This document shows, piece after piece, positions 1,779 to 6,013 of a DNA stretch of 12,027 nucleotides. The stretch is from assembly GCA_030432135.1 (NCBI GenBank), contig JAUIHD010000003.1, forward strand, positions 1 to 12,027. Reading direction: 5' to 3'. The stretch comes from a bacterium. Lineage in GTDB: Bacteria > Patescibacteriota > Minisyncoccia > Phycocordibacterales > 1-14-0-10-42-12. The notes beneath the pieces are model-generated. The model saw nothing but the letters and a program-made list of their open reading frames with translations. It did not search any database and had not been told where the DNA came from. Every line of letters begins with the position of its first letter. The stretch's first letter is position 1. The position numbers were made by a program, and so were the translations under genes.

Positions 1779-3419
1779 ATGAATATTATTGAATTTTTAC
1801 AAAATCACACAAGTACGGAGATAAGCACTAAAAAGGCAGATCTTGAAAAACACAGCAAAGACACCTCATTATTCCAGGTGATGCCAATAGCTGTAGTGTT
1901 TCCCAAAAATAGTAAGGAGATTAGTGAGTTAGTGAAAGCAATTTCTGAACTTAAAGAAAATGGAGAAGATGTATCTCTCACAGGCCGCTCTGGAGGAAGT
2001 GATATGACAGGAGGACCACTTACAAAATCAATTGTACTGTCGACGACAAAGTACATGAAGAATTTTTCTATAGATACAGAAAAACAGCTTGCAGTAGTAG
2101 AGCCTGGTGTATTTTATAGAGATTTTGAAAAATCAGCAGACAAGGCTGACTTAGTATATCCTGCGTTTCCCGCTTCTAAATCACTTTGTGCATGGGGTGG
2201 CATGGTGATGAATAACTGTGCCGGAGAAAAAACACTTCGTTATGGTCAGACACGTGAACATGTGGAGAGGCTTAAGATGATTCTTTCTGACGGTAATGAA
2301 TACATGTTTGGACCTCTCACTGAATCTGAACTTTTTGAAAAAATGAATCGAAATAATTTCGAGGGGGATTTGTATCGAAAAGTGTACGATCTTGTCGATG
2401 AAAACTATGGAGTGATCCAAAAAGCCAAGCCAAAAGTGTCTAAAAACTCTGCAGGGTACGCCTTGTGGCGAGTATGGGACAAAGAGAAAAAGATATTTGA
2501 TATGTCACAACTCTTTACTGGATCGCAAGGGACTCTTGGTATGATGACCGAGGCTAATGTGCGTCTCATAAAAAAGGGGAAGCATGAAAGTATGATTGCA
2601 ATTTTTTTACCTAGTTGGGGTAAATTGCCGAGTCTTGTGAATAAAATTCTTCCGTTTGAACCAGAGAGTCTCGAAACATTTGACGATGCCACTATGAAGC
2701 TCGGTATTCGATTTATGCCGGAAATCGCAAAGAAAGTGGGTGTGTCACTCTTTGCATTTCTGTGGCAGTTTTTACCGGAAGCATTCATCACACTCCGTAT
2801 GCTTGCTTTCCCGAAGCTTGTGATACTTGTGCAGCTCGTTGAAGAAAAGGAAGATGTGCTTAATAAAAAAATAAAAGATATCGAAAAAGTTCTTAAAAAA
2901 GAAAAGGTACTCTCACGAACACTTCGAGAAAAACGAGAGCGGGATAAATACTGGGTCATGCGTCGCGAGAGCTTTAACCTCCTTCGACAAAAAGTGAAAG
3001 GTAAGAGGACTGCGCCGTTTATCGAAGACTTCTGTGTTCTCCCTGAAGATATTCCACAATTTCTACCAGAACTTCTTAAGATCTTGAAAGAGGCGGGTAT
3101 CAAAGCAAATATTGCTGGGCACGCAGGTAATGGAAATTTCCACATCATTCCTCTCATGGATCTTACTGATGAAAAAGAACGGGCAAAAATAGTGCCAACA
3201 GCTGACAAAATTTACGACCTGGTTATCTCATATAGTGGTAGTATCACAGCGGAACACAATGACGGAATTATTCGTACCCCATACCTAAAGCAGCAATTTG
3301 GTGATGATATGTACCATTTATTTGAAGAAGTAAAGAGAATTTTCGACCCTCAGGGTATATTCAACCCAAAAAAGAAGATCGGAGGGACAAAGGCTGATAT
3401 TATAAATAATATGTACTAG
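1779..3419 (+). CDS. FAD-linked oxidase (GlcD / D-lactate dehydrogenase-like)
   Basis: A 546-residue flavoprotein of the FAD-linked oxidase family (PCMH-type FAD-binding fold plus FAD-oxidase C-terminal domain), whose members oxidise 2-hydroxy acids such as D-lactate or glycolate. The FAD-binding half spans about residues 34-265, with a pyrophosphate loop near 66-80 (SLTGRSGGSDMTGG), the WGGMVMNNCAGEKTLRYG segment at 139-156 and TGSQGTLG at 247-254. The C-terminal half ends with GHAGNGNFH at 447-455, AEHNDG at 491-496 and IFDPQGIFNPKK at 521-532, the usual metal and substrate region. Compared with the classic GHxGDGNxH and GEHGxG motifs, Asn replaces Asp at 451 and Asn follows the second His. 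There is no GlpC-type iron-sulfur domain fused to it and no partner gene nearby, so the electron acceptor is unknown. A charged, probably helical segment lies at 355-410. The family call is secure; the substrate is not. Confidence 0.9.
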   Translation: MNIIEFLQNHTSTEISTKKADLEKHSKDTSLFQVMPIAVVFPKNSKEISELVKAISELKENGEDVSLTGRSGGSDMTGGPLTKSIVLSTTKYMKNFSIDTEKQLAVVEPGVFYRDFEKSADKADLVYPAFPASKSLCAWGGMVMNNCAGEKTLRYGQTREHVERLKMILSDGNEYMFGPLTESELFEKMNRNNFEGDLYRKVYDLVDENYGVIQKAKPKVSKNSAGYALWRVWDKEKKIFDMSQLFTGSQGTLGMMTEANVRLIKKGKHESMIAIFLPSWGKLPSLVNKILPFEPESLETFDDATMKLGIRFMPEIAKKVGVSLFAFLWQFLPEAFITLRMLAFPKLVILVQLVEEKEDVLNKKIKDIEKVLKKEKVLSRTLREKRERDKYWVMRRESFNLLRQKVKGKRTAPFIEDFCVLPEDIPQFLPELLKILKEAGIKANIAGHAGNGNFHIIPLMDLTDEKERAKIVPTADKIYDLVISYSGSITAEHNDGIIRTPYLKQQFGDDMYHLFEEVKRIFDPQGIFNPKKKIGGTKADIINNMY

Positions 3420-3433
3420 TACGGCCGTATCTC

Positions 3434-4117: not shown

Positions 4118-4150
4118 AACAAAAGCGGCCCTTGGCCGCTTTTGTTTTTT
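4118..4150 (+). terminator. Intrinsic terminator after bL25
   Basis: Left arm AACAAAAGCGGCC (4118-4130), loop CTT, right arm GGCCGCTTTTGTT (4134-4146), a perfect 13-bp stem, then a T run to 4150. An A-rich left flank makes it possibly bidirectional. Its right arm overlaps the promoter of the next gene. Confidence 0.9.
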
Positions 4151-4158
4151 GGTATAAT
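4132..4158 (+). promoter_or_regulatory. Promoter of the transglycosylase gene, inside the terminator
   Basis: TATAAT at 4153-4158 is a perfect -10; TTGGCC at 4132-4137 is a possible -35 with a short 15-nt spacer. The -10 ends 10 nt before the ATG at 4169, predicting a leader of at most a few nt. The -35 lies in the loop and right arm of the upstream terminator. Confidence 0.6.
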
Positions 4159-4168
4159 AGAAGTCTAT

Positions 4169-5509
4169 ATGAAAAAGTTATTCCAGAGAATAAGTACATT
4201 TTTTTTGGCTTTCGCATTAGTTGTACAGGTTGCGAATCCTGTCTTGCTTTTAGCTGAGACAATTGAAGAAAAAGAAGCGCGACTCCGCGCAGCGCTTGCT
4301 CAGAAAGAAAGAGAGATTGCCGTGCAGCAGGCAATTCTAGAAAACGAACAAAGAGAAACAGCATCTATTGAAAGAGACCTTGCCATCTTGAACGCCCGTA
4401 TTAAAGAACAGGAACTAAAAATTGAGGCGCGCAACATCGAGATCCAAATTTTAGGAAGAGATATTAACCTAAAGAACGAGACTATTGGTGAACTCAATAA
4501 TAAGATAGGCCGATCGAAGGAGTCACTATCACAACTTATTAGAAAGAAAAACGAGATTGATCAATTTTCTCTGGTAGAGATTGTGCTTTCAAACGAAGAT
4601 ATTTCAGATTTTTTCGCTGATGTCGATTCTTTTGATTCAATAAATGTCGCCATGCAGGCTTCTTTTGAAGAAATTCGAGATACCAAAAGTCAGGCAGAGC
4701 TTGAAAAAGATCAACTTGCTGTAAAACAGGCGGAAGAAGCGGACGCTAAGAAGGTGATTGAAAGTGAAAAGAAAAAGGTGGAGCGTGATGAGAGCGCAAA
4801 AGAAGAATTACTTGCTATTAATAAGGAGCAGGAGAGAACCTATGCGGCGGTGCTTGCGGCGAGACAACAGGAAGCAGCTGCCATTCGTGCAGCACTCTTT
4901 GCCCTTCGAGATGCGGGACCGATCCAGTTTGGGCAAGCGCTTGAGTATGCAAACGCTGCATTTCGCATGACCGGTGTCCGTCCAGCATTCTTGCTTGCAA
5001 TTTTGACACAAGAATCGGAGCTTGGGCGAAATGTGGGAACATGTAATCGACCAGGAGATCCTCCTGAAAAACATTGGACTGAGATTATGCCTGGACCACA
5101 TAGCAATTCGTGGCGAGATGATCAATCTGCTTTTTTAAGAATCATGAAGGGTCTTGGGCGTGAACCAGAAGGCACACCTCTTTCTTGTCCTATTGGTGCT
5201 GGGTGGGGAGGAGCCATGGGACCTTCTCAGTTTATCCCAGCTACGTGGGAAGCATATATCCCAAAACTTGAGCAGATACTCGGTGTTCACCCAGACCCGT
5301 GGAATCCTCAGCACGCATTTACTGCATCAGCAATTTACTTAGCCGATCTCGGTGCTTCTCAGGGCGGGTATAGTGCAGAGCATGAGGCTGCTGCCCGATA
5401 TTATGCGGGTGGAGGATGGCAGACCCGTGGACAAGCCTATGCCAATAGTGTGCTAAATCATGCACAAAACATCCAGACCAATATGATCGATCCGCTCCAG
5501 GGGCTCTAA
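4169..5509 (+). CDS. Secreted coiled-coil protein with lytic transglycosylase-like domain
   Basis: A 446-residue exported protein that probably acts on peptidoglycan. Residues 1-29 form a signal peptide (basic MKKLFQR, hydrophobic core, likely cleavage after LLLA). Residues about 31-245 are a long charged coiled coil (heptad-like E/K/R/A/L/I), resembling the N-terminal regions of PcsB- and EnvC-type cell-wall factors. Residues about 250-435 resemble a transglycosylase/lysozyme-like domain: LLAILTQESELG (275-286) with likely catalytic Glu282, GGAMGPSQFIPATWEAY (347-363), the helix AFTASAIYLADLG (383-395) and AARYYAGGGW (408-417). C292 and C340 flank an insert and could form a disulfide outside the cell. 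The ATG at 4169 was chosen because the signal peptide begins there and a TATAAT sits 10 nt upstream; the longer TTG-started reading frame from 4142 would begin inside the terminator and promoter. The exact bond cut and the exact SLT subfamily are not certain. Confidence 0.85.
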   Translation: MKKLFQRISTFFLAFALVVQVANPVLLLAETIEEKEARLRAALAQKEREIAVQQAILENEQRETASIERDLAILNARIKEQELKIEARNIEIQILGRDINLKNETIGELNNKIGRSKESLSQLIRKKNEIDQFSLVEIVLSNEDISDFFADVDSFDSINVAMQASFEEIRDTKSQAELEKDQLAVKQAEEADAKKVIESEKKKVERDESAKEELLAINKEQERTYAAVLAARQQEAAAIRAALFALRDAGPIQFGQALEYANAAFRMTGVRPAFLLAILTQESELGRNVGTCNRPGDPPEKHWTEIMPGPHSNSWRDDQSAFLRIMKGLGREPEGTPLSCPIGAGWGGAMGPSQFIPATWEAYIPKLEQILGVHPDPWNPQHAFTASAIYLADLGASQGGYSAEHEAAARYYAGGGWQTRGQAYANSVLNHAQNIQTNMIDPLQGL

Positions 5510-5529: not shown

Positions 5530-5558
5530 TAGACAGATTGAGGGACTTGTGCTAGTAT
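5530..5558 (+). promoter_or_regulatory. Promoter of the small RNA at 5565
   Basis: TAGACA at 5530-5535, a 17-nt spacer, then TAGTAT at 5553-5558 with TG one base ahead (extended -10). The predicted start is near 5565. There is no start codon with a sensible reading frame downstream, so this promoter fits an RNA gene. Confidence 0.6.
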
Positions 5559-5564
5559 TGCCGC

Positions 5565-5683
5565 AGGCCTGTAGTCGCGCTCGTTTCGAACCCGGCGTAA
5601 CTCTCTTCTCTCCCGCGCACAGTTCACGAGGACGCTTGACTCGGCCCTCACGGGGGCGGCACCGGTGTGCCGCCCCCTTTTTT
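5565..5683 (+). ncRNA. Unidentified GC-rich structured small RNA, about 115-120 nt
   Basis: Between a promoter and a terminator lies a segment that is about 68% G+C (81 of 120 bases at 5561-5680, counted by hand), against 33% in the 70 bases at 5691-5760. Nested complementary segments suggest one long irregular hairpin: GGCC 5566-5569 with 5643-5646, AGTC 5573-5576 with GACT 5638-5641, GCG 5577-5579 with CGC 5633-5635, CTCGT 5580-5584 with ACGAG 5626-5630, and GAAC 5588-5591 with GTTC 5622-5625. Small bulges separate the helices, mostly on one side. The apex holds a pyrimidine-rich stretch, CTCTCTTCTCTCCC at 5601-5614, that could be single-stranded. The RNA then ends in a strong terminator. 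I see none of the SRP RNA loop (GGAAG/GNRA), a tmRNA tag or tRNA-like end, or RNase P motifs. A 6S-like regulator is a possible but unproven alternative. The 5' end is inferred from the promoter. Confidence 0.6.
5652..5683 (+). terminator. Intrinsic terminator of the small RNA
   Basis: Left arm GGGGGCGGCAC (5652-5662), loop CGGT, right arm GTGCCGCCCCC (5667-5677): a perfect 11-bp, nearly all-GC stem followed by six T. It separates the RNA gene from bL31. Confidence 0.95.
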
Positions 5684-5714: not shown

Positions 5715-5743
5715 TTGATTTTTATAGATATTCTTGTTACAGT
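5715..5743 (+). promoter_or_regulatory. Promoter of the bL31 gene
   Basis: TTGATT at 5715-5720, a 17-nt spacer, TACAGT at 5738-5743. The -10 ends 15 nt before the ATG at 5759, giving a leader of about 9 nt with no Shine-Dalgarno. This independent promoter argues against the upstream RNA being a bL31 leader. Confidence 0.55.
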
Positions 5744-5758
5744 ATTTGCCACTGAATT

Positions 5759-6013
5759 ATGAAAAAGGAAATTCACCCAGACAACTATAGAAAAGTGATA
5801 TTTGAAGACGTTTCAAACGGGGAGCGCTTTCTTATTGGTTCAACAGCGGAAAGTGAAGAAACGGCTAAGTGGACAGATGGAAACGAGTACCCACTATGCA
5901 AAATTGAAATCTCAAGTACTTCTCACCCATTTTATACAGGAACAAAACGAGTTATCGACAGTGCTGGTCGTGTAGAAAAGTTCAAGGCTCGACAGGCAAA
6001 AGCAGGCAAGTAA
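5759..6013 (+). CDS. rpmE: 50S ribosomal protein bL31, type B
   Basis: An 84-residue bL31 of the large ribosomal subunit. [20 protein letters not shown] at the start, the middle segment [13 protein letters not shown] and [12 protein letters not shown] (52-63) with GRVEKF (70-75) match the type B form. The zinc-binding cysteines of the classic form are absent; the only Cys (C47) is not at a zinc position, so this is the zinc-independent paralogue type. In many bacteria type B is a zinc-starvation spare (rpmE2/ytiA); here it sits in a translation cluster, which suggests it may be the main copy, although the rest of the genome is not visible. A large hairpin follows the stop by 10 nt. Confidence 0.95.

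Follow-up and report, generated by a model that had tools for sequence, protein, structure and literature searches.

The window, that is, the whole stretch of 12,027 nt analysed here, is contig C32 of genome G000 (417 kb, 59% complete). A GC-rich element lies in it between a transglycosylase gene and rpmE, with the following features:

4142..5509, plus strand: upstream gene with an SLT_2 transglycosylase domain (domain match; start codon not settled)
5530..5558, plus strand: promoter-like site P1 from the promoter scan (-35 TAGACA at 5530-5535, 17 nt, TGC, -10 TAGTAT at 5553-5558)
5566..5646, plus strand: GC-rich irregular hairpin of the RNA body (predicted fold)
5599..5614, plus strand: pyrimidine-rich loop of 16 nt, unpaired, with CUCUCCC at its end; candidate for pairing (predicted fold and unpaired probability)
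5652..5683, plus strand: intrinsic terminator with an 11-bp stem, a 4-nt loop and six T, the best-ranked of the window's 19 matches
5715..5743, plus strand: promoter-like site P2 before rpmE (TTGATT, 17 nt, TACAGT, preceded by TG; found by eye, absent from the scan matches)
5759..6013, plus strand: downstream gene rpmE (ribosomal protein bL31)

P1 begins 21 bases past the transglycosylase stop codon. The extended -10 promoter described in the initial annotation is present, with TGC before TAGTAT, yet promoter matches in the window were no commoner than in shuffled sequences (21 found, shuffled mean 25.1). The terminator, previously called perfect, was confirmed: 10 of the 11 pairs of its stem (5652-5677) are G-C, and TTTTTT follows directly. 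The G+C count had been given as 81 of 120 bases, and a recount for 5564-5683 yielded 78 of 120; by its best 80-base window, the element ranked third among 221 G000 intergenic stretches. No ATG occurs in 5564-5683. The longest frame on the plus strand (50 codons) starts from a GTG within P1, upstream of the predicted transcript start, and the minus strand over the element carries GTG frames of 37 and 22 codons. What is expected of an independent sRNA gene was thus found in the form of consensus matches: its own promoter, an intrinsic terminator and no ATG frame. Given the promoter and terminator matches, the element appears to be independent, as had been proposed for a free-standing RNA gene, and in our judgement it is probably an RNA gene.

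In the predicted ensemble, the loop at 5599-5614 was unpaired with a probability of about 1 (1.00 for its CTCCC), which would provide the accessible C-rich seed characteristic of UCCC-type sRNAs. The predicted fold does contain the five nested helices reported earlier. Taken by itself, however, the hairpin (5564-5650) folded no better than shuffled sequences (z -1.03; 34 of 200 shuffles folded as well), which counts against the sRNA reading. The whole RNA did fold better than shuffles (z -3.33), a significance contributed by the terminator.

The family search comprised two genomes, G000 itself and G001, the sole other genome of the genus. Between the same two genes, G001 carries a promoter-like site, a GC-rich body and a terminator-like hairpin, which favours an sRNA gene of this lineage. 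Its promoter reads TAGACA-17-TATATA with TGC before the -10, and the TAGACA starts at the stop codon. Against such a gene, this TATATA matches the consensus at 4 of 6 positions, so that the promoter is less clear than that of the window; the combined promoter and terminator scan chose an overlapping TATAAT ten bases upstream of it. A site resembling P2 (TTGCCA-17-TAGAGT) was seen by eye before the G001 rpmE as well. The two RNA bodies could not be aligned (local score 18, shuffled mean 26.1, P 0.994), a further adverse result. With build and place shared and the bodies unalignable, it is the position and the build that are common within the genus, not the sequence.

DNA similarity searches of the family found only the element itself, in one of the two genomes. 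Across the order, 17 of 197 genomes gave matches at E 0.1, and the 16 other than G000 were matches of 16-36 bases that did not go beyond chance. The rpmE loci of 28 other genomes, taken from the best 30 of 181 matching genomes (G000 and G001 included), showed no such unit by eye, L233 and L243 aside, where the contig edge intervened; none was seen by eye in 21 loci viewed out of a set of 80 named ones. Several relatives join the transglycosylase gene and rpmE by a short AT-rich spacer, also judged by eye. As far as seen, the restriction to one lineage that had been suggested agrees with these searches, no such unit having been noticed by eye in other families.

Crude gene calls yielded 266 reciprocal best hits between G000 and G001 (median identity 67%); 25 gene pairs were conserved and separated by 60 or more intergenic bases in each genome. 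GC-rich stretches in both genomes (60-base maximum of at least 0.70) were found for two of these 25 pairs, the element's locus and uvrC-ddl; the rest reached at most 0.58. The uvrC-ddl locus contains sRNA-like units on the strand opposite to both uvrC and ddl:

L320:3960-4246, minus strand: two sRNA-like units at uvrC-ddl in G000, each with a TTGACA
L281:17306-17445, minus strand: one sRNA-like unit at uvrC-ddl in G001

A scan of the intergenic stretches of both genomes returned 49 candidates with promoter and terminator. When these were ranked by GC content, the element came first, its G001 counterpart second and the uvrC-ddl units third, fifth and ninth, which supports the sRNA reading; the candidates ranked fourth and sixth to eighth (the seventh tRNA-like) had no CCUCC or CUCCC at an unpaired probability of at least 0.7. 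In the five RNAs, CCTCC occurred 8 times (1.49 expected from dinucleotide shuffles, 0 of 2000 shuffles) and CCTCC or CTCCC 12 times (2.93 expected, 0 of 2000). All five carry at least one of the two motifs (P 0.0105), and GGAGG was at chance (1 versus 0.52); the window's RNA itself has one CTCCC and no CCTCC. Each of the five has at least one CCUCC or CUCCC copy at an unpaired probability of at least 0.77, a point for loop-based pairing, and they constitute five of the seven candidates among the 49 that expose these motifs at 0.7 or more, a level at which none of the 49 exposes GGAGG or GGGAG. Intergenic hairpin loops overall showed no enrichment (CCTCC 58, GGAGG 61), which argues the other way.

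The uvrC-ddl RNA is homologous between G000 and G001 (score 45 versus 22.0, sd 3.9; 0 of 500 shuffles), in favour of a maintained RNA. Its apical loops, AAUCCUCCCC and ACCUCCCC, keep CCUCCCC, and the inner stems, CUCUC/GAGAG and UUCAC/GUGAA, differ on both sides at two of their five pairs and agree at three. MAFFT aligned the 5' halves of these hairpins and did poorly over their full length. A covariance model of the G001 hairpin (R1) placed the G000 counterpart first, with other GC hairpins close behind (23.2 versus 22.2 bits). Over the order, this model matched 3 of 197 genomes at E 0.1, G001 itself included; the search missed the known G000 copy and is therefore insensitive. For ddl, loci of 28 other genomes were drawn from the best 30 of 88 matching genomes, and none of the 25 readable ones had a similar unit. 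In genome G015, from a different family, the sequence upstream of ddl (L382) includes a GC-rich stretch that closes with a terminator-like hairpin. A kissing interaction of the window's RNA with the uvrC-ddl locus was considered and dropped because, judging by the promoters and terminators of that locus, its transcribed strand is one whose loops are pyrimidine-rich too.

The covariance search called for in the initial annotation matched the element to no Rfam family: with permissive filters, 5530-5683 had no match up to E 5. No match was obtained for the G001 counterpart (E 5 and E 1), the G000 uvrC-ddl units (E 1) or the G001 uvrC-ddl unit (gathering scores only). The G001 RNase P RNA match (L274:7047-7414, minus strand) scored 46 bits against an Rfam gathering score of 100, pointing to a divergent or reduced form; Rfam cut-offs consequently miss RNAs in this lineage. 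With strict filters, none of 148 genomes of the order yielded SRP RNA (11 of 14 controls positive), and with laxer ones RF00169 matched neither of two genomes; the Ffh M domain was not detected in any of 60 genomes of the order (14 of 14 controls positive). A pattern search of G000 and part of G001 with the SRP domain IV motif gave only matches that looked unrelated by eye and were discarded. The 6S family (RF00013) had no match in the two genomes at E 10, in a search positive in only 8 of 14 controls. As far as tested, these results agree with the earlier doubts about SRP RNA and 6S. No Hfq match came from 60 genomes of the order, in a search positive in 5 of 14 controls, which weighs against regulation by pairing with Shine-Dalgarno (SD) sites; such pairing would need no helper or another one. 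The missing SRP RNA and Ffh are in line with Nelson and Stegen (2015; PMC4508563), who report having detected no ffh and no gene for 4.5S RNA among their Parcubacteria genomes.

In both genomes, the 16S rRNA sequence that follows helix 45 is GGAAUAAUUCAACUGAG (L304, minus strand; L272:1241-1304), without CCUCC. The sequence GGATCACCTCCTTTT in G001 was rejected as a 16S end, the site having no rRNA match and the 16S of both genomes ending without CCUCC. The canonical 16S tail sequence, GGCTGGATCACCTCCTTTT, also turns up astray, outside any rRNA match, at L285:8421-8450, where the other strand reads AAGGAGGTGATCCAGCC ahead of a terminator-like hairpin. According to Amin et al. (2018; PMC6107228), 128 organisms have 16S rRNA without the anti-SD, and rRNAs without a perfect anti-SD generally go with no recognisable SD either. 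The core genes studied here are in line with that report: among 140 orthologues with a shared ATG, SD-like 4-mers numbered 5-12 per 5-base bin between -45 and -26 and dropped to 0-6 between -25 and -1, in either genome.

GC-rich frames behaved differently from those of lower GC. A strong SD preceded 29 of 56 frames with a GC content of at least 0.48 in G000 and 26 of 61 in G001, a finding for pairing with SD sites, compared with 3 of 358 and 18 of 534 frames below 0.45 (Fisher 9e-26 and 2e-17, respectively). Intermediate proportions were found in the band 0.45-0.48 (4 of 24 and 11 of 70), and at a control position 30 bases upstream of the GC-rich frames the counts were 4 of 56 and 3 of 61. Examples of this SD-led, GC-rich class are L326:2257-2802, L303:7376-8188 and L298:6728-7276. 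Most members are orphans, with an orthologue in the other genome for 3 of 29 (G000) and 2 of 26 (G001), and one orthologous pair (L304 frame 3250-3432; C9 frame 34-216) is an artefact because it lies inside the G001 16S gene. Stray contigs do not explain the class, since 28 of 29 and 26 of 26 members are on contigs with other orthologues; 25 (G000) and 15 (G001) lie within two genes of an orthologue. Pfam matched seven of ten G000 members searched out of the 29 (FolB, His_Phos_1, Cu-oxidase_4, TonB_C, NTPase_I-T, Response_reg and, weakly, Reg_prop) and did not match three. We infer that the class was acquired horizontally. Among 75 loci in the order's other genomes, mostly around conserved genes, 9 of 275 frames had an SD against 8 at the control position, and among frames at least 0.05 above local GC the count was 2 of 36; the class was not seen there. 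Orthologous SD-led genes share, at L326:3900-3970 (minus strand) and in G001 at C15:5850-5895, a leader of the form GGTACCC(C)TTACT..AAGGGG(G)AGGAG, in which a small hairpin directly precedes the strong SD. With a 16S lacking the anti-SD, the SDs of GC-rich genes are only putatively functional here, which counts against regulation through them.

The loop had been proposed as an antisense site for SD-like mRNA regions. In that general form the proposal fails because the core genes of the genus are without SD and the 16S is without anti-SD. A narrower form, confined to the SD-led GC-rich class, fared better in part. For all six loops tested, predicted pairing was much stronger with the SD class than with core genes, which supports it, and for the window's loop the median energies were -10.5 and -3.2, respectively. 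The best partners of this loop were L326:2912-3907 (-20.6), L306:5835-6038 (-18.3) and L298:6728-7276 (-18.1); the top three, and five of the top eight, belong to the SD-led GC-rich class, and L326:2912-3907 has a G001 orthologue with a similar leader. As to specificity of sequence, 65 of 100 composition-matched shuffled loops paired as well, a result against the reading, so that the preference of the window's loop for the SD class rests on composition only. Other loops did stand out, with shuffles as good in 3 of 100 cases for each of the two G000 uvrC-ddl loops, 5 of 100 for the G001 counterpart of the element and 2 of 100 for the upstream CCUCCUCC segment in G001; the G001 uvrC-ddl apical loop did so less (18 of 100). 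Across 243 orthologue pairs, the top-ten energies of the window's loop (-18.5, shuffled -18.3) gave no clear excess of strong targets, also unfavourable, and the loops fitted the SD set of their own genome no clearly better than that of the other.

Several other explanations were weighed. The element may be a GC-rich 3' UTR and terminator of the transglycosylase unit that insulates rpmE and has no separate RNA function, a reading that we hold to be doubtful though serious. The short distance of P1 from the stop codon (21 bases), the start of the G001 TAGACA at the stop codon itself, the window's top terminator at the end of the unit and the frequency of GC-rich terminators in both genomes all suit it, but the promoter-like TAGACA-17-TGC element recurs in both genomes, several relatives make do with a short AT-rich spacer between the same genes (by eye), and termination does not call for a further 80 GC-rich bases and an open loop. 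Somewhat less plausible, and in our view unlikely, is that the G000 and G001 units are independent, functionless insertions of GC-rich foreign DNA at an insertion-prone site. The dissimilarity of the two units (P 0.994), the GC-rich orphan genes scattered over both genomes and the fact that no such unit was seen by eye in other families would be explained, whereas insertion accounts poorly for the two being the most GC-rich promoter and terminator units of both genomes, and for a homologous uvrC-ddl counterpart in which the stem covaries and the loop is kept.

An attenuator or leader of rpmE would suit an element that immediately precedes the bL31 gene and has a terminator at its end; it is improbable in view of the promoter-like P2 after the terminator in both genomes (by eye), with no competing antiterminator seen and no match to an Rfam leader family. 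A divergent housekeeping RNA, either SRP RNA or 6S, is very improbable. Size and a single long hairpin would agree with one, and so would Rfam cut-offs that miss RNAs here (RNase P, 46 versus 100 bits), but the genomes of the order gave no SRP RNA (148 searched) and no Ffh M domain (60 searched), and neither of two genomes matched 6S at E 10 (8 of 14 controls positive). Equally hard to credit is a decoy of the 16S rRNA tail whose loops would copy an anti-SD and titrate something that binds it. Both G001 units contain ACCUCC, and of the three G000 units two contain CCUCC; set against this, the 16S of both genomes has no CCUCC after helix 45 and the window's loop has CUCUCCC only. Era is a binder of the 16S rRNA tail. 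Its loss in most CPR phyla is reported (PMC10582724), which also opposes a decoy.

Comparison with known systems gave partial likenesses. The RNA resembles SRP (4.5S) RNA in being a GC-rich single hairpin of about 100 nt and differs in having no RF00169 match, SRP RNA and Ffh being unmatched in the searched genomes of the order. Like 6S RNA, it is free-standing and, by prediction, largely double-stranded; unlike 6S RNA, it has an open loop at its tip and no match at E 10, and it is short for a 6S RNA. Its position upstream of rpmE resembles that of the bL31 (rpmE) leader RNAs, but a terminator of its own closes it, a promoter-like site for rpmE comes next, and there is no Rfam match. In the UCCC-motif sRNAs of Staphylococcus, RNAIII and RsaE, unpaired UCCC seeds pair with SD sequences (PMC9217828). 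The window's loop likewise has a UCUCCC that is predicted to be unpaired, and the RNA ends in an intrinsic terminator; the difference is that core mRNAs here are without SD, so that the possible targets are one special gene class. The likeness concerns the predicted seed only, and we claim neither sequence relation nor family membership.

The element looks like a real small RNA gene without an Rfam family, apparently confined to one lineage. As to its role, the best of several weaker readings is pairing with SDs of the GC-rich class: we assign a probability of roughly 0.35 to a lineage-limited, independently transcribed sRNA whose pyrimidine loop can pair with the SDs of that class. Under this reading, an RNA of about 120 nt would expose the pyrimidine loop CUCUCUUCUCUCCC, which would base-pair with purine-rich SD sites of mRNAs and block initiation, as UCCC-motif sRNAs do. 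Because core genes are without SD, the RNA would have access to GC-rich accessory genes led by an SD, such as L326:2912-3907 and L298:6728-7276. It would belong to a small group of such RNAs, with further units at uvrC-ddl. A bolder version, which we consider a long shot, is that the anti-SD has moved into small RNAs, the CCUCC and CUCCC loops of which would govern SD-bearing, foreign-looking genes apart from native ones; this would most simply amount to translational silencing, an RNA form of xenogeneic silencing, and less likely to recruitment. We found no study of small regulatory RNAs in this group in the open-access literature, a partial coverage in which subscription papers are largely missing. 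If real, the RNA would be a concrete sRNA in a lineage without an SRP or Hfq match in the genomes searched, and the wider pattern makes it testable whether a cell can tell native from foreign mRNA by the ribosome-binding site.
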